Of a stretch of 39,369 bases of DNA, positions 4,528 to 38,384 are shown piece after piece. The DNA is taken from the NCBI GenBank assembly GCA_016288305.1, contig JAEEYW010000071.1:1-39369 (forward strand). Direction: 5' to 3'. This stretch comes from Caryophanales bacterium. GTDB taxonomy: Bacteria; Bacillota_I; Bacilli_A; RF39; UBA660. Every line of letters starts with the position of its first letter. Within the stretch, counting starts at the first letter, position 1. The notes under the pieces were generated by a model. That model was not told the DNA's origin, did no database searches, and saw nothing but the letters and a program-made list of their open reading frames with translations. A program made the translations under genes and the position numbers.

Positions 4528-4745
4528 TAAATCACCTCCTACTAACTCTATTCGCCAACACATGTAATTTCCTTATAAGATAATTAAAAATCCGAAATCT
4601 CACTAATACACTTAACAAGTACATTAATCACATCTATATCATTAATTAAATTAACACTAAATGTTTTATAACCTATTCTATTGATGCTTCTTCTGCTACT
4701 TCGGTATGAAGAACCGAAGAAAGCATAGCTACACCTTGTTCTGTA
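4445..4745. repeat. direct repeat, unit 1 (offset 475)
   Basis: Nearly identical to 4920-5220 at a constant offset of 475 bases. It spans the start region of one ORF6N copy, the intergenic DNA and the C-terminal remnant plus end of the next copy. Most sites match by eye across the first 270 bases. Confidence 0.85.
4584..4672 (-). pseudogene. out-of-frame C-terminal remnant of ORF6N copy 1
   Basis: Immediately after the stop of the truncated copy, a shifted frame reads INRIGYKTFSVNLINDIDV and on to ISEISDF, then TAA at 4584-4586. The intact gene ends with the same stretch (CGTSINRIGYKTFSVNLI). It is the leftover tail of a once full-length gene. Confidence 0.85.
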
Positions 4746-5002
4746 AATACATACGGTAATTCTCTGGCCATATTTAGACTTTTTGTGGTTTCAATTTGAA
4801 ACCGCAAATGATTAAGTTCATCGTCAGTTAATTGAAAATAAAAATCATTAGGAAACCTATCAATATTTCTTCTAACAGCTAAATTAACTGATTTGGTTCC
4901 ATTTTTACAATGATAAAGTCTAGCCAAATCACTATCCAGCATTACCCGTTTACCTCTTATCTCATATATTTTATTCTTTATGTCATCTATTACTTCTATC
5001 AT
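4673..5002 (-). CDS. truncated ORF6N-domain protein, copy 1
   Basis: 109 residues comprising only an ORF6N DNA-binding domain: DIKNKIYEIRGKRVMLDSDLARLY, a KRFP-like core (NIDRFPNDFYFQLT), a variable segment LRFQIETT, and VFTEQGVAMLSS. The start at 5002 is fixed by AGGAGGTGAT; the longer frame to 5038 has no ribosome site. The protein stops at ...EEASIE, and the remainder of the ancestral gene follows out of frame. The stop arises because a deletion joined TCAATA in one frame to ATCAATA in another. ORF6N domains occur in phage and mobile-element regulators. Whether this short product is made is unknown. Confidence 0.75.
   Translation of the reverse strand: MIEVIDDIKNKIYEIRGKRVMLDSDLARLYHCKNGTKSVNLAVRRNIDRFPNDFYFQLTDDELNHLRFQIETTKSLNMARELPYVFTEQGVAMLSSVLHTEVAEEASIE
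4782..4808. repeat. inverted repeat inside ORF6N copy 1
   Basis: Arms of 13 bases (4782-4794 and 4796-4808) with one mismatch around a single central base; the inner eight pairs, GGTTTCAA and TTGAAACC, are perfect. It encodes the LRFQIETT segment on the minus strand. Confidence 0.9.
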
Positions 5003-5220
5003 TAAATCACCTCCTACTAACTCTATTTGCCAAAACATGTAATTTCCTTATAAGATAATTAAAAATCCGAAATCTCACTAATACACTTAACAAGTACACT
5101 AATCACATCTATATCATTAATTAAATTAACACTAAATGTTTTATAACCTATTCTATTGATGCTTCTTCTGCTACTTCGGTATGAAGAATGGATGAAAGCA
5201 TAGCTACGCCTTCTTCTGTA
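4920..5220. repeat. direct repeat, unit 2 (offset 475)
   Basis: Second member of the pair with 4445-4745. It carries the start of copy 1 and the tail and end of copy 2. Confidence 0.85.
5059..5147 (-). pseudogene. out-of-frame C-terminal remnant of ORF6N copy 2
   Basis: Same arrangement as after copy 1: after the premature stop a shifted frame reads SINRIGYKTFSVNLINDIDV to ISEISDF and ends at 5059. The deletion junction is identical to that of copy 1. Confidence 0.85.
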
Positions 5221-5480
5221 AAAGCATGTGGTAAATATTTGATGTTTTGCCCTCTTTTTACATTCAAGGTTCCAGTTTGGAACCTTGAACACTCCACACT
5301 TGTTAATTCAAAATAAAAGTCATCAGGAAATCTATTAATGTTTCTTTTAACAGCCTTATTAATATCTTTGGTACCATTTTTACAATAATAAAGTTTAGCT
5401 AAATCAAAATCTAACATTACCTGTTTTCCTCTAATTTCATATATCTTATTTTTTATGTCATCTTCAATTATTTCAATCAT
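5148..5480 (-). CDS. truncated ORF6N-domain protein, copy 2
   Basis: 110 residues containing one ORF6N domain: DIKNKIYEIRGKQVMLDFDLAKLY, NINRFPDDFYFELT, the variable SRFQTGTL, then KYLPHAFTEEGVAMLSS. GGAGGTGA precedes the ATG at 5480. It lies 10 bases after the intact copy and ends at the same EEASIE stop as copy 1, so the truncation happened before the duplication. The middle of the domain differs sharply from the other copies while both flanks are conserved. Confidence 0.75.
   Translation of the reverse strand: MIEIIEDDIKNKIYEIRGKQVMLDFDLAKLYYCKNGTKDINKAVKRNINRFPDDFYFELTSVECSRFQTGTLNVKRGQNIKYLPHAFTEEGVAMLSSILHTEVAEEASIE
5263..5289. repeat. inverted repeat inside ORF6N copy 2
   Basis: Perfect 12-base arms, TTCAAGGTTCCA (5263-5274) and TGGAACCTTGAA (5278-5289), around three central bases. 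It encodes SRFQTGTL on the minus strand. Confidence 0.95.
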
Positions 5481-5490
5481 GTTTCACCTC

Positions 5491-6372
5491 CTATGTTTGA
5501 ATTTCATTAATACGTTTAATTAAAGCATTAATCATATCTATATCACTAATTAAATTAACACTAAATGTTTTATAGCCTATTCTATTGATACTTGTCCCAC
5601 AATGATAGACTAAAGTATCATCTAATATAAAATATCTATCATGAAAAGTATTATTATATATGACTTTAAGATTATGATATTGCTTATTATATTTAGATAT
5701 ATCGTCTTTAGTTAGTAATTTATCTGTTGTTATTAATGTAACTTCTATATTTAACCTTTTAATAATATCTAATACATTATAATCAGCATAACTATCAATA
5801 ATTATTAATTTATTTTTAGCCTCACTACATATTTCTAATATTTTACTTCTAGCATCATATATTTGACCTTCAAAATATATTTCATTTATTTTTTTCTTTT
5901 CTTCAAACTTATTGAGAGTTTCTTGCAATAGTTTAATACTATTATCATGTTCCAATACTTTTGTTTCGATATTCAACAGCATATCTTTATTATCGCCTAT
6001 ATAATGACGCATGGCTACAAAAGCATCCATTATTTGAATTGAAGTTTGTACTGCTATATCACTTTTTATAATTGTTGCAAGCATAGCTACACCTTGTTCT
6101 GTAAATACTCTTATAGCATATCTCCTACCGCCATGTACACTTTTTAAACTTGAGGTCAAAATTTTTGACCTCAAAATAACGACATCATCATCAGTTAAAA
6201 TCCATGAATATCTTTCAGGAAATTTATTTATATTATTTTTTACAGCTTGATTTATCTCTTTAGTTCCATTTTTACAATGATACAACTTAGCTAAATCAGA
6301 ATCCAGCATTACCTGTTTACCTCTTATTTCATATATTTTATTTTTGATATCGTTATCTATAACATCCAACAT
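5491..6372 (-). CDS. ORF6N-domain protein with C-terminal phospholipase D-like domain (intact copy)
   Basis: 293 residues. Residues 1 to about 95 are an ORF6N DNA-binding domain (IYEIRGKQVMLDSDLAKLY, NKFPERYSWILTDDD, variable LRSKILTS, VFTEQGVAML). About 100-175 is helical and likely coiled (LNIETKVLEHDNSIKLLQET). About 180-290 resembles the PLD-like half-domain often fused to ORF6N, with LIIIDSYADYNVLD and FHDRYFILDDTLVYHCGTS; HDR replaces the canonical HxK, so catalysis is doubtful. AGGAGGTGA precedes the ATG at 6372. It heads an array of degraded copies beside parA. ORF6N proteins are typical of phages and mobile elements; a DNA-binding regulator is the likeliest role. Confidence 0.85.
   Translation of the reverse strand: MLDVIDNDIKNKIYEIRGKQVMLDSDLAKLYHCKNGTKEINQAVKNNINKFPERYSWILTDDDVVILRSKILTSSLKSVHGGRRYAIRVFTEQGVAMLATIIKSDIAVQTSIQIMDAFVAMRHYIGDNKDMLLNIETKVLEHDNSIKLLQETLNKFEEKKKINEIYFEGQIYDARSKILEICSEAKNKLIIIDSYADYNVLDIIKRLNIEVTLITTDKLLTKDDISKYNKQYHNLKVIYNNTFHDRYFILDDTLVYHCGTSINRIGYKTFSVNLISDIDMINALIKRINEIQT
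6150..6174. repeat. inverted repeat inside the intact ORF6N gene
   Basis: Perfect 12-base arms, TTGAGGTCAAAA (6150-6161) and TTTTGACCTCAA (6163-6174), around one central base. It encodes LRSKILTS on the minus strand, the same codons that carry palindromes in copies 1 and 2. Confidence 0.95.
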
Positions 6373-33930: not shown

Positions 33931-35295
33931 ATGGATATAAATAACATATGGAAATCTTTTTTGGAAAAAATGCAAGATTCATTAACTCCTGTATTATATG
34001 ATATGTGGTTTTCTGAAACGAAACTTATTGAATTAAATCAGGAATTTGCTAAAGTACTGGTTCCTATGCCACTTCATAAAAAACATCTTAAAGAAAACTA
34101 TATTGAATTAATAGAAAAAACATTTTCTGATGTAACTGGTTCTATTTTTAAATTTGAATTTGTTACTGAAGATGATTTAAATGATGATAATATAATAGAT
34201 ATTGATGAAATAGGTGTTCCGGGAAATGCTATATTTCAGTCTAATTTAGATCCTAAATATACTTTTGAAAGTTTTATTCCTGGTACAAGTAATAAATTTG
34301 CTAAAGCGGCAGCACTTGCTGTTGCTGAACAACCTGGTAGTATGTATAACCCATTATTTATATATGGAAAAAGTGGGTTAGGTAAGACACATTTAATGCA
34401 TGCTATTGGTAATTATATTAAAGATAATAGTCGTAAAAAAGTACTATATGTTACGACTGATACTTTCGTTAATGACTTTTTAAAAATATACCGTAAAAAT
34501 GAAAGTGACACTAATTTTGAAACAATTGACGATTTTAAAAATAAATATCGTAATGTTGATGTATTAATGATTGATGATATACAATACTTAGAAATAGCTC
34601 AAAAGACACAACAAGAATTCTTTAATACATTTAATGATTTATATACAAACAATAAACAAATAATAATTGCATCAGATAGATCACCTGATGATTTAAAAAA
34701 ACTTGAGGAAAGATTAAGAACTAGATTTGTCTGGGGATTAATTGTTGATATCTTACCACCAGATTATCAATTGCGTATGGATATTATTGATAAAAAAATT
34801 GATTCTAACAATCTAAACACTTTTTTTCCACAGGATGTAAAAGAATATATTGCTAATAATTGTACTACTGATATAAGGAAACTTGAAGGTGCAATTACAA
34901 GAATTATTGCTTATTCCACAATAATGAATGGTTCTGATATAACTTTAGACTTAGCGATGGATGCTTTAAAGGATTATATAGGTGTAAAATTAATAGCTAA
35001 AAACAAAATTGAACAAGTTCAAAATGTGATAGCTAATAACTATAATATAAAGGCTGAAGACTTGCGAAGTAAGAAAAAATCAAATGATATAGCCATTCCA
35101 AGACAAATAGGTATGTATATTTGTAGGGTATACTTAAAAGAATCTTTACCTAAAATTGGAGCTGAATTTGGTGGTAAAGATCATACCACAGTTATGCATG
35201 CTGTTAACAAAATAAAAGCTGAAATTGAAAAAAATGATCAATTAAGTGTAGAAATTAATAAAATCATTAAACAATTACCGTGGATAAATCAATAA
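33931..35295 (+). CDS. dnaA: chromosomal replication initiator DnaA
   Basis: AAA+ initiator that binds DnaA boxes and opens oriC. 454 residues. Domain I is residues 1-80; domain II is very short (about 81-108); domain III has Walker A GKSGLGKTH at 146-154 and LMIDDIQYL; domain IV has the signature GGKDHTTVMHAVNKI. AGGGTGAT precedes the ATG at 33931. Boxes upstream suggest autoregulation, and one more lies downstream before dnaN. Confidence 0.98.
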   Translation: MDINNIWKSFLEKMQDSLTPVLYDMWFSETKLIELNQEFAKVLVPMPLHKKHLKENYIELIEKTFSDVTGSIFKFEFVTEDDLNDDNIIDIDEIGVPGNAIFQSNLDPKYTFESFIPGTSNKFAKAAALAVAEQPGSMYNPLFIYGKSGLGKTHLMHAIGNYIKDNSRKKVLYVTTDTFVNDFLKIYRKNESDTNFETIDDFKNKYRNVDVLMIDDIQYLEIAQKTQQEFFNTFNDLYTNNKQIIIASDRSPDDLKKLEERLRTRFVWGLIVDILPPDYQLRMDIIDKKIDSNNLNTFFPQDVKEYIANNCTTDIRKLEGAITRIIAYSTIMNGSDITLDLAMDALKDYIGVKLIAKNKIEQVQNVIANNYNIKAEDLRSKKKSNDIAIPRQIGMYICRVYLKESLPKIGAEFGGKDHTTVMHAVNKIKAEIEKNDQLSVEINKIIKQLPWINQ

Positions 35296-35414: not shown

Positions 35415-36536
35415 ATGAATTTTAAAATTAAAAAAGAAAATTTATTAAAACATTTAAATTACGTAATTAGGGGTATATCTAGTAAGAATATTAGACCAAT
35501 TTTAAATTGTATTAAATTTGATTTAACAGAAGAAGGATTATATTTATCAAGTACAGATAACGATATTGCTATAAAAACATTTGTGGATAAAAAATTTATT
35601 GAAGAAGAGTATACTTGTGGTAGATTTGTTGTTTCTGGAAAATATATATATGAAATAATAAGAAAATTACCTAATGAAATTATTTCAATAGAAGAGGTAA
35701 TGGATTCTAAAATTTTTATTTCAACAAAAAATAGTTCTTTTTCATTAAATTGTAATAACATTAACGAATTTCCAGATTTAGAATTAGAAGAAACAAAGAA
35801 TCCTGTTATATTGAATACAAAAGTTTTAAAAACTATTTTAAATCAAACTACGTTTGCAGCTTCAACACAAGAATCTAGACCTGCAATTACTGGTATTAAT
35901 TTTAAAATTACTGGTAATAAATTAGAATGTACAGCTACAGATTCATATCGTCTTGCTAAAAAAATAATTGAATTACCAGATTCTGTCAAAGAAGATATAA
36001 ATATAATCGTTCCAACAAGAAACTTATTAGAATTATCAAAAATGTTTTCTGAAGATGATACTAATATAGAAATGCATATATTTAATAATAAAGTAATTTT
36101 TAAATTTGAAACTATTATAATGCTTTCTAGATTAATTAATGGAACATATCCAGATGTTTCTAAATTAATACCTGATGATTTTCTTTTAACAGTAACGTTA
36201 TCAATGCCAGAATTTTATTCATTGCTTGATCGTGTATCATTGTTTTCCACAGAAGAAGAAAAAAATACTATTAAGTTAGAGTGTGTTGATAATTTAATTA
36301 CTGTTAAATCAAACATTCCAGAAATAGGTAATGTAGAAGAAAAAATAGAAGTAGAAAAAAATAATTCAGAAAATATTAAAATAGCGTTTAGTTCTAAATA
36401 TATGATGGATGCTATTAAGGTATTAGAATGTGATAAAATTGAATTATGTTTTAATGGTGAAGTTAAACCAATTATTATCAAAAATCCAGATGATAATAAT
36501 TTAATTCAATTAATTGTACCTATAAAAACATATTAA
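35415..36536 (+). CDS. dnaN: DNA polymerase III beta sliding clamp
   Basis: Ring-shaped processivity clamp. 373 residues with three clamp folds; ISSKNIRPILNCIKFDL near the start, RPAITGINFKI in domain II, and the C-terminal hydrophobic pocket segment NLIQLIVPIKTY (usual ending V.PVR). AGGAGG precedes the ATG at 35415. It lies directly after dnaA. Confidence 0.97.
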   Translation: MNFKIKKENLLKHLNYVIRGISSKNIRPILNCIKFDLTEEGLYLSSTDNDIAIKTFVDKKFIEEEYTCGRFVVSGKYIYEIIRKLPNEIISIEEVMDSKIFISTKNSSFSLNCNNINEFPDLELEETKNPVILNTKVLKTILNQTTFAASTQESRPAITGINFKITGNKLECTATDSYRLAKKIIELPDSVKEDINIIVPTRNLLELSKMFSEDDTNIEMHIFNNKVIFKFETIIMLSRLINGTYPDVSKLIPDDFLLTVTLSMPEFYSLLDRVSLFSTEEEKNTIKLECVDNLITVKSNIPEIGNVEEKIEVEKNNSENIKIAFSSKYMMDAIKVLECDKIELCFNGEVKPIIIKNPDDNNLIQLIVPIKTY

Positions 36537-36550
36537 TTAAGATAAAAATG

Positions 36551-36589
36551 AAGAAAAAAGTAAAAAAAATTAACTTTTTTCTTTTTTTT
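36551..36589 (+). terminator. intrinsic terminator of dnaN
   Basis: AAGAAAAAAGT (36551-36561) and ACTTTTTTCTT (36573-36583) form an eleven-pair, A-U-rich stem followed by T. Confidence 0.7.
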
Positions 36590-36613
36590 GACAAATTTCG
36601 ACATTTTTCGACA
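36586..36613 (+). promoter_or_regulatory. three 10-bp phased TTTYGACA repeats upstream of the comK-like gene
   Basis: TTTTGACA at 36586, TTTCGACA at 36596 and TTTCGACA at 36606, exactly one helical turn apart. The first contains a consensus TTGACA -35; an extended -10-like TGTGGTATAAG lies at 36621-36631. Confidence 0.55.
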
Positions 36614-36673
36614 ATAAACTTGTGGTATAAGAGTATCCGTCGAATTAATTTTCGTCTAGGGGGAGGTGTTTTG

Positions 36674-37138
36674 ATGATTGATGAATACTATATAAATGAA
36701 GATACTCTTTTATTAGTTCCAGTCAGCAAAGAAAAAACAAAAATATACGATATAAATGGAACATTTTACATTAAGAAAAATTGTTTTGAATTGGTAGATG
36801 AAAGTTGTCAATACTATGGAAGCAGTTACGGTGGTAGATATTTAGGTGCTAAAAAAATGTTAGACATGGAATATAAATTACCTATAATAGCAGATGAAGT
36901 AAAAGAAGTAATCATGGTTCCAACATGTTCACCACGTCAACAAAGTTGCATTTGGATGTGTTTAAATAATATTGAAAATTATATAAAATTTAAAAATATT
37001 TCAAAGGTAAAATTCACAAATGGACTTAATTATGATTTAACGATTTCATATCCTTCGTTAGAAAATCAAATTTTGCGTGGAACATTATTATTAACAAGGT
37101 TAAAAAATAGAAAAAATAACCCTAAAAAAATAGCAAAA
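36674..37138 (+). CDS. ComK-family competence transcription factor
   Basis: 155 residues matching ComK: EDTLLLVPVSKEKTKIYDING, the core ESCQYYGSSYGGRYLGAKKML, PTCSPRQQSCIWMCLNNIENY, and a final FTNGLNYDLTISYPSLENQ. ComK activates DNA-uptake genes by binding paired AT-boxes. The ATG at 36674 is set by GGGAGGTG; the frame upstream to 36548 runs over the dnaN terminator and is not coding. It occupies the place where many Bacillota have the S4-domain gene yaaA. Stop codon TAG ends at 37141. Confidence 0.82.
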
Positions 37139-37153
37139 TAGCTATTTTTTTTA
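37124..37153 (+). terminator. intrinsic terminator of the comK-like gene
   Basis: AAAAAATAGC (37125-37134) and GCTATTTTTT (37141-37150) surround a six-base loop; the T run continues to 37152. Confidence 0.8.
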
Positions 37154-37171
37154 TTATTTTAGGCATTTTTA

Positions 37172-37256: not shown

Positions 37257-38384
37257 ATGTATTTAGAGGAACTTCAACTAAGAAATTTTAGAAACTATGA
37301 TGCACTGAAAATAAAATTAAATTCTCATTTTAATATATTTTATGGAAATAACGCCCAAGGAAAAACAAATTTATTGGAAAGTATTTATGTTTTAGGACTT
37401 TCAAAATCACATTTATTGAATCTAGATAGCAATTTAATTAAAGATGGTACAGATATTTGTAAAATAAAGGGTATTGTTAAAAAAAATAAGTTAAAAACAA
37501 AACTTGAAGTTGAATTAAAAAATGATCAAAAAATTTTAAAGATTGACGATAATGAAATAAAAAAAATAACAGATTATATTAATTCAAGTATCAATGTCAT
37601 AATATTTTACCCTGAGGATCTAGAAATAATAAAAGGATCTCCTAATAATAGACGTAATTTTATTAATCTTGAATTAAGCCAATTATCTGATAATTATCTA
37701 AAAATATTAACAGAGTATAACAAATTATTGAAAATTAGAAATGACTATTTAAAAAAAATGTCTAAAAATATTTCTATTGATGAAACATATTTTCAAATAA
37801 TTACGAACTACTTAATTGATAAAGCAATAATAATATATAAAATGCGTATGAAATTTATTAATAAAATAAATGAAAGTAGCAACAAAATATACTATGAATT
37901 AACAAAACTATCAGGATTTAATATAAAATATATTACAAATATATCTTTAAATTCTAATGATGATATATTAAAAGATACTTTGTTGAAGACTTACGAAAAA
38001 AATCGAAAAAAAGAAATAAAATTAGGAGCTACGCTATATGGTCCACATCGTGATGATTTAGAATTTTATCTTCAAGATAAGGATTTGAAAACATATGGAT
38101 CACAAGGACAAAAACGTGTAGCTATTTTAGCTACTAAGCTATCGGAAATAGCTATATTTAAACAATATACAAATAATAGTCCTATTTTATTATTAGACGA
38201 CGTTTTTAGTGAGTTAGATGACATTAAAAAGAATAATCTTGTTAAATTTATTAGTGATGATATACAAGTTATTGTAACAACAACAGAACTTAAAAATGTC
38301 AATAAATTTAGTACTGCAAGCATTTTTAAAATTAAAAATGGTGAAATAATTAAAGTCAAAGAGGTGGATAAAGATGGAAAATAA
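37257..38384 (+). CDS. recF: DNA replication and repair protein RecF
   Basis: SMC-like ATPase that helps load RecA at gaps. 375 residues. [15 protein letters not shown] at the start, Walker [14 protein letters not shown], the signature region SQGQKR, and Walker [13 protein letters not shown] are intact. GAGGT precedes the ATG at 37257. It overlaps gyrB by eleven bases. Confidence 0.97.

Follow-up and report, generated by a model that had tools for sequence, protein, structure and literature searches.

In Bacillus subtilis, the starvation and sporulation regulator Spo0A binds in its phosphorylated form (Spo0A~P) directly to the promoter of comK, the gene for the master switch of DNA uptake; of the boxes in that promoter, three have a proposed activating role and two a proposed repressing role, according to the available text of PMC3297582. 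Within the 0A core TGTCGAA recognized by this regulator, nucleotides G2, C4 and G5 contact Spo0A (PMC3485338, available text). A second precedent concerns position: the comCDE locus of Streptococcus pneumoniae, like the comK gene examined here, is a competence regulator locus situated near the origin (PMC12795458, available text, citing Slager 2014).

The stretch of DNA analyzed here, referred to as the window, comprises 39,369 nucleotides (contig JAEEYW010000071.1 of GenBank assembly GCA_016288305.1) and carries a comK gene within the origin cluster. Both the gene and its location hold up on analysis, and they are fixed across the whole family to which the window's genome belongs. It is likely that comK is read from its own extended -10 promoter bearing two to three tandem Spo0A boxes over the -35 region, with Spo0A~P turning comK on and ComK then turning on the DNA-uptake genes. 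Direct Spo0A control is the best-supported input to comK on the evidence of the sequences compared.

The comK gene and its position

The first-pass annotation of the window placed a ComK-family gene between dnaN and recF, and the family search and gene order bear this out. The 155-residue product matches Pfam family PF06338 (E 9.3e-35; 120.1 bits against a cut-off of 22.3) over residues 3-147. All 27 of the aligned ComK proteins of the family match that Pfam entry as well. A search of NCBIfam with the window ComK returned no family. On the plus strand the order is dnaA, dnaN, comK, recF and gyrB, the last beginning at 38374; the names dnaA, dnaN and recF are those we take these genes to have (Table 1). 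A longer comK frame starting at 36548 was considered and rejected, since the Shine-Dalgarno sequence and the onset of conservation in relatives favor 36674. A sign change of the GC skew near 33-34 kb marks the origin, roughly 3 kb away from comK.

Table 1. Coordinates of features at the comK locus, numbered from the first nucleotide of the window
Feature	Position	Strand	Basis or remark
dnaA, marks origin	33931..35295	+	Translation; GC-skew sign change nearby
dnaN, 5' neighbor of comK	35415..36536	+	Translation and tblastn synteny
Terminator-like A/T-rich hairpin 3' of dnaN, with T tail	36536..36592	+	RNA fold z -2.67; overlaps distal box
Distal Spo0A-type box TTTGACA, one mismatch	36587..36593	+	Ends 32 bp 5' of -10
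Middle Spo0A-type box TTCGACA, exact	36597..36603	+	Ends 22 bp 5' of -10
Proximal Spo0A-type box TTCGACA, exact	36607..36613	+	Ends 12 bp 5' of -10
Extended -10 element TGGTATAAG	36623..36631	+	TGnTATAAG in 17/17 genus members
Shine-Dalgarno of comK	36659..36667	+	Direct reading of sequence
comK, ATG to stop	36674..37141	+	PF06338; orthologues at same site in 90/96 family loci
A/T-rich hairpin with T tail at comK stop codon, terminator-like	37100..37160	+	RNA fold z -5.13
recF, 3' neighbor of comK	37257..38384	+	Translation and tblastn synteny

The window's genome measures about 1.02 Mb in 73 contigs. Its lineage presumably corresponds to the RF39-type Bacilli of GTDB; the genus includes Candidatus Faecisoma merdavium, and the NCBI placement is Mycoplasmatota. 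At 4673-6372 the window also holds three tandem paralogues that share the motif KNKIYEIRGKxVMLDxDLAxLY at their start and look antirepressor-like by eye.

Among 60 relatives, 37 belong to the window's family and 23 to other families; ComK is found in 36 of the former and 6 of the latter. A wider sample of the order, comprising 193 genomes that all belong to the window's family, yields ComK in 184 genomes and 83 of 84 genera. For comparison of the surrounding DNA, 96 family loci were assembled, consisting of 36 from the first set of relatives and 60 hand-picked loci, one per further genus, drawn from the matches listed in the order-wide search after those at contig edges were excluded; the six loci from other families (L037-L042) were kept out of this set. 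The arrangement dnaN-comK-recF on one strand occurs in 90 of the 96 loci, so the possibility raised at the outset that the position belongs to a single strain is ruled out. Two further loci have dnaN 5' of comK with no recF seen. The remaining four copies are relocated beside ligA, with gatC/gatA near in two (gene names assigned by eye), one such gatC/gatA-near locus having no ligA in its stretch. All four fall into one clade of a ComK tree of the 96 sequences (support 0.774), and the nearest outside neighbor of this clade by distance is an origin-site copy; comK therefore probably left the origin site only once, and that site is probably the ancestral one.

The position may nonetheless be an accident, a reading to which we assign slightly less than an even chance. 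Under this explanation a single insertion brought comK to the dnaN-recF junction in an ancestor of the family, and the gene was kept there because origin operons rarely break; the site would be without regulatory meaning, and control would lie entirely with Spo0A and other factors. One relocation away has been tolerated, and in the six other-family genomes of the class comK lies elsewhere, either beside pgk or one gene away from it in five, with an ABC-transporter ATPase gene mostly adjoining too (both by eye). Retention of the site in nearly all of the family loci, and of ComK itself in all but one genus, weighs against mere accident, although the neighbors have been retained as well.

The comK promoter and its Spo0A-type boxes

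The sequence TTCGACA is the complement of the 0A core TGTCGAA, and the boxes upstream of comK are direct repeats at an exact 10-bp spacing. In all 17 loci of the genus, two boxes that deviate from TTCGACA by no more than one nucleotide end 12 and 22 bp before TGnTATAAG, and a third ends 32 bp before it in 16 of the 17. Of the 79 loci outside the genus, 37 have an exact plus-strand box and 17 keep the triple. Over the full set, an exact box lies 5' of comK in 57 of 96 loci against 0.96 per shuffle, and in the control intergenic regions it occurs in 1 of 90 (comK-recF) and 1 of 83 (dnaA-dnaN); in the other 39 loci, neither strand of the upstream region carries an exact box. Same-strand boxes across the 96 loci are spaced by 10 bp (59 cases) or 20 bp (44 cases), with five other cases. 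If the -10 hexamer is assumed to occupy -12 to -7, the predicted box centers fall at about -28, -38 and -48. The 0A core of the Spo0A-bound spo0A and sigH promoters of C. difficile is likewise positioned 60-80 bp before the start codon, as described in the available text of PMC3485338, whereas the target in the window is a competence regulator.

A separate search was made for the ComK box, which we take to be represented by AAAAN5TTTT pairs. These pairs occur in 20 of 96 comK upstream regions, compared with 8 in one set of 90 control regions and 13 in another of 83, a frequency that does not set the comK promoter apart; autoregulation by ComK and its binding to target promoters are accordingly hypothetical.

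The first-pass annotation described comK as flanked by its own terminators and hence as an independent unit. The first part is plausible, given that T-tailed hairpins stand on both sides of the gene, and the GC-based terminator scan found none around comK, as expected at 22-25% GC. The two hairpins together with a conserved promoter upstream make comK look like a separate transcription unit and so lend support to the second part. Leader folding was also evaluated: the family mean z is -1.10, compared with 0.07 and 0.26 in control regions, and the window's own leader, with a z of -0.46, has no clear extra folding. Where leaders in the family do fold, a hairpin is often found just 5' of the Shine-Dalgarno sequence.

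The protein that would act on these boxes is widespread. The Spo0A DNA-binding domain is found in 36 of the 37 family genomes, and the copy in the window genome (contig C69, E 3.8e-41) aligns to the structures 1fc3 (E 1e-41) and 1lq1 (E 3e-40), with a near-identical SRVERAIRHA segment. Exact tandem box pairs occur genome-wide in 25 of the 37 family genomes and 2 of the 23 others, and a reversed-pattern control gives none in all 60. The places of these pairs were read in 32 rows covering 30 loci: 12 stand before a sensor kinase, 6 before comK and 3 before spo0A, another 6 are close to cold-shock genes, and the remaining 5 are without an assigned target. At L167 7498-8781 (contig C22), the second exact pair of the window genome precedes a membrane sensor histidine kinase with HisKA and HATPase_c domains. 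In three relatives (G020, G032 and G050, at L104, L106 and L131) the pair stands before spo0A, which suggests autoregulation of spo0A there. With box pairs before kinases, spo0A and comK, comK appears to be part of a small Spo0A regulon.

An agrB gene was also considered as a target of the box pairs and set aside: five such loci were read, and in four of them the pair lies between two opposite-strand cold-shock genes, which are its likelier neighbors. Four loci (L118, L119, L111 and L124; L314-L317) have this arrangement of a box pair between two cold-shock genes, followed by a set consisting of agrB, an agrD-type peptide gene, a GHKL kinase gene and a LytTR regulator gene.

In the proposed mechanism, starvation signals would act through sensor kinases on Spo0A, and Spo0A~P would bind the boxes as tandem dimers and switch comK on. 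ComK would then act on comEA-comEC and on the genes for the pilus ATPase, the pseudopilins, PilC and the prepilin peptidase. The two distal boxes fit an activator at -35, and the proximal box, located between -35 and -10, may serve as a shut-off at high Spo0A~P in the manner of the R sites of B. subtilis comK.

DNA-uptake genes and the predicted fold of ComK

The window genome does contain DNA-uptake genes, the lack of which had been named in advance as an argument against a competence locus. ComEC is present in 35 of the 37 family genomes and T2SSF (ComGB/PilC) in 36, the window genome included in both cases; there, ComEA adjoins ComEC and a prepilin peptidase stands beside T2SSF (by eye, the family match having been obtained on the relative L170). 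The expected set is incomplete in two respects. A PilB-type pilus ATPase (T2SSE, E <=1e-100) is found in 35 of the 37 family genomes, and no such strong match was found in the window assembly, where the T2SSE match is weak (3.6e-28), possibly through a gap among the 73 contigs. DprA has no match in the window genome and is absent from 34 of the 37 family genomes, being found in 3, whereas the same search finds it in 13 of the 23 genomes from other families. The absence of DprA and the weak T2SSE match count against simple transformability, although the former has no bearing on the homology of ComK, and natural transformation by the classical route is possible but doubtful.

These absences invite the explanation that ComK no longer runs transformation: it would serve a different stress state or the uptake of DNA as a nutrient, or would be a decaying relic. 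The rarity of DprA in the family and the want of a clear pilus ATPase in the window genome speak for it, but decay would erase ComK, ComEC, PilC and the operator, all of which are conserved and intact, and RecA loaders other than DprA could stand in for it. We regard this explanation as rather unlikely. The loss of DprA with ComK and ComEC kept raises the question of the purpose of competence in small gut genomes.

SpoIVA is found in 35 of the 37 family genomes, which fits the published prediction that RF39 bacteria are capable of sporulation (PMC10868615, available text). The family consists of small-genome gut bacteria that probably form spores. By word counts, competence, comK and ComEC are unmentioned in the main text of PMC10868615.

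Promoter-like motifs near the pilus and competence genes were also cataloged. Between the divergent pilB and pseudopilin genes, the short gap (L174 10448-10541 and relatives) is taken up by a dyad of strong conservation, TTCTAAA..TATTATATAATA..TTTAGAA. The exact pattern occurs in 22 of the 60 genomes and lies at the pilB site in each of the 21 whose coordinates were compared (all but G026), so the dyad looks like one bidirectional promoter and was rejected as a regulon operator. At four loci of genome G023 (L296, L297, L288 and L293), a promoter-like motif of 38 bp, AGGAAAWT-N7-YTTTTRTCGAATRATATAAGTAGG, stands before comK, comEA and genes for a C39-type ABC transporter and a PD-(D/E)XK-like protein, the last two named by eye. 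A sigma-H-like motif common to comK and comEA in G023 was rejected, as its degenerate pattern matched in 5 of 60 genomes and a reversed control matched too; the SigH model gives matches in all 60 genomes, none of them above the curated cut-off.

The structure of the window ComK was predicted with AlphaFold (pLDDT 94.1) and compared with PDB entries. The six best entries are all LytTR domains with Z scores of 8.1 to 7.4, followed by unrelated folds at 3.4; the match to ComE has a Z of 8.0 over 103 residues (rmsd 3.4) and that to DNA-bound AgrA a Z of 7.7, although a Z near 8 may reflect a common arrangement. A second model, built for a ComK of a different family with 20% identity to the window protein, has a pLDDT of 96.7 and again gives LytTR domains as its six best entries (Z 7.6 to 6.0, then 4.0), the two models being not fully independent because their alignments share most rows. 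Foldseek on its own gives no significant match, with E values above 0.001 for both models, hhalign of ComK against six AgrA sequences gives a probability of 3, and the Pfam LytTR model stays below its cut-off, matching 2 of 27 members weakly (best E 0.016) and reaching 18.2 bits against a cut-off of 22.6 in one of six other-family ComK proteins. A search for solved structures related to ComK found none, and the literature searched, as far as its text was available, contained no paper tying ComK to LytTR. In both models the predicted ComK structure resembles the LytTR domains of ComE and AgrA well above all other PDB matches. Unlike AgrA and ComE, ComK has no receiver domain, and with its LytTR sequence signal beneath the Pfam threshold it is not classed as a member of that family. 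If a LytTR-like fold is confirmed, ComK joins the fold of ComE and AgrA.

A possible role of origin dosage, further readings and known systems

A replication-dosage switch would give the position of comK a direct function. In this model comK is kept close to the origin so that its copy number rises when forks stall and its output tracks replication stress, a scheme already proposed for pneumococcal comCDE. The distance of about 3 kb and the retention of the site over many genera are consistent with such a role, and pneumococcal comCDE, near its origin, is induced by replication stress (PMC12795458, available text). Against this, the clade with comK beside ligA/gatCA indicates that the origin site is not indispensable, gene order near origins can stay fixed through inertia, and a specific Spo0A operator would account for regulation with no help from dosage. 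As the sole explanation, the dosage switch is distinctly unlikely; a dosage effect added to Spo0A control is possible, and the placement and the boxes suggest that starvation and origin copy number could both feed one comK switch. The clade with the moved comK offers a natural case on whether origin placement matters.

A composite reading would have origin copy number and Spo0A~P jointly set the dose of ComK at one promoter, the B. subtilis Spo0A gate reduced to a single triple-box operator, the LytTR-like ComK a distant relative of pneumococcal ComE, and uptake proceeding without canonical transformation since DprA is gone. Taken as a whole, this combination is improbable. It is most improbable that the TTCGACA boxes are bound by a regulator other than Spo0A: motif identity alone names no protein, and genome G031 has one exact box and no Spo0A match, but the core, the 10-bp tandem spacing, the boxes before spo0A and a sensor kinase gene, and the conserved Spo0A DNA-binding domain all agree with Spo0A.

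Spo0A control of comK, the best-supported reading, would be a known link placed in a new architecture and lineage. The literature searched yielded no description of comK or competence in the window's lineage, and with the proposed control the link from Spo0A to ComK, known in B. subtilis, would reach into a large gut lineage that is uncultured. It would do so through a simple conserved promoter in which three evenly spaced predicted Spo0A boxes stand by an extended -10 element.

The closest described relative remains the comK promoter of B. subtilis, which likewise presents a ComK gene with several Spo0A boxes and proposed activating and repressing sites. That promoter contains five degenerate boxes (three A and two R) together with Rok and ComK boxes (PMC3297582, available text). 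The window promoter, unlike it, has two to three near-perfect tandem direct repeats in 10-bp steps and an extended -10 element, and its gene belongs to the origin cluster. In S. pneumoniae, as described in the available text of PMC12795458, the origin-proximal comCDE is a peptide-pheromone two-component system, whereas the window has a ComK gene with a predicted Spo0A operator, known here from its sequence.
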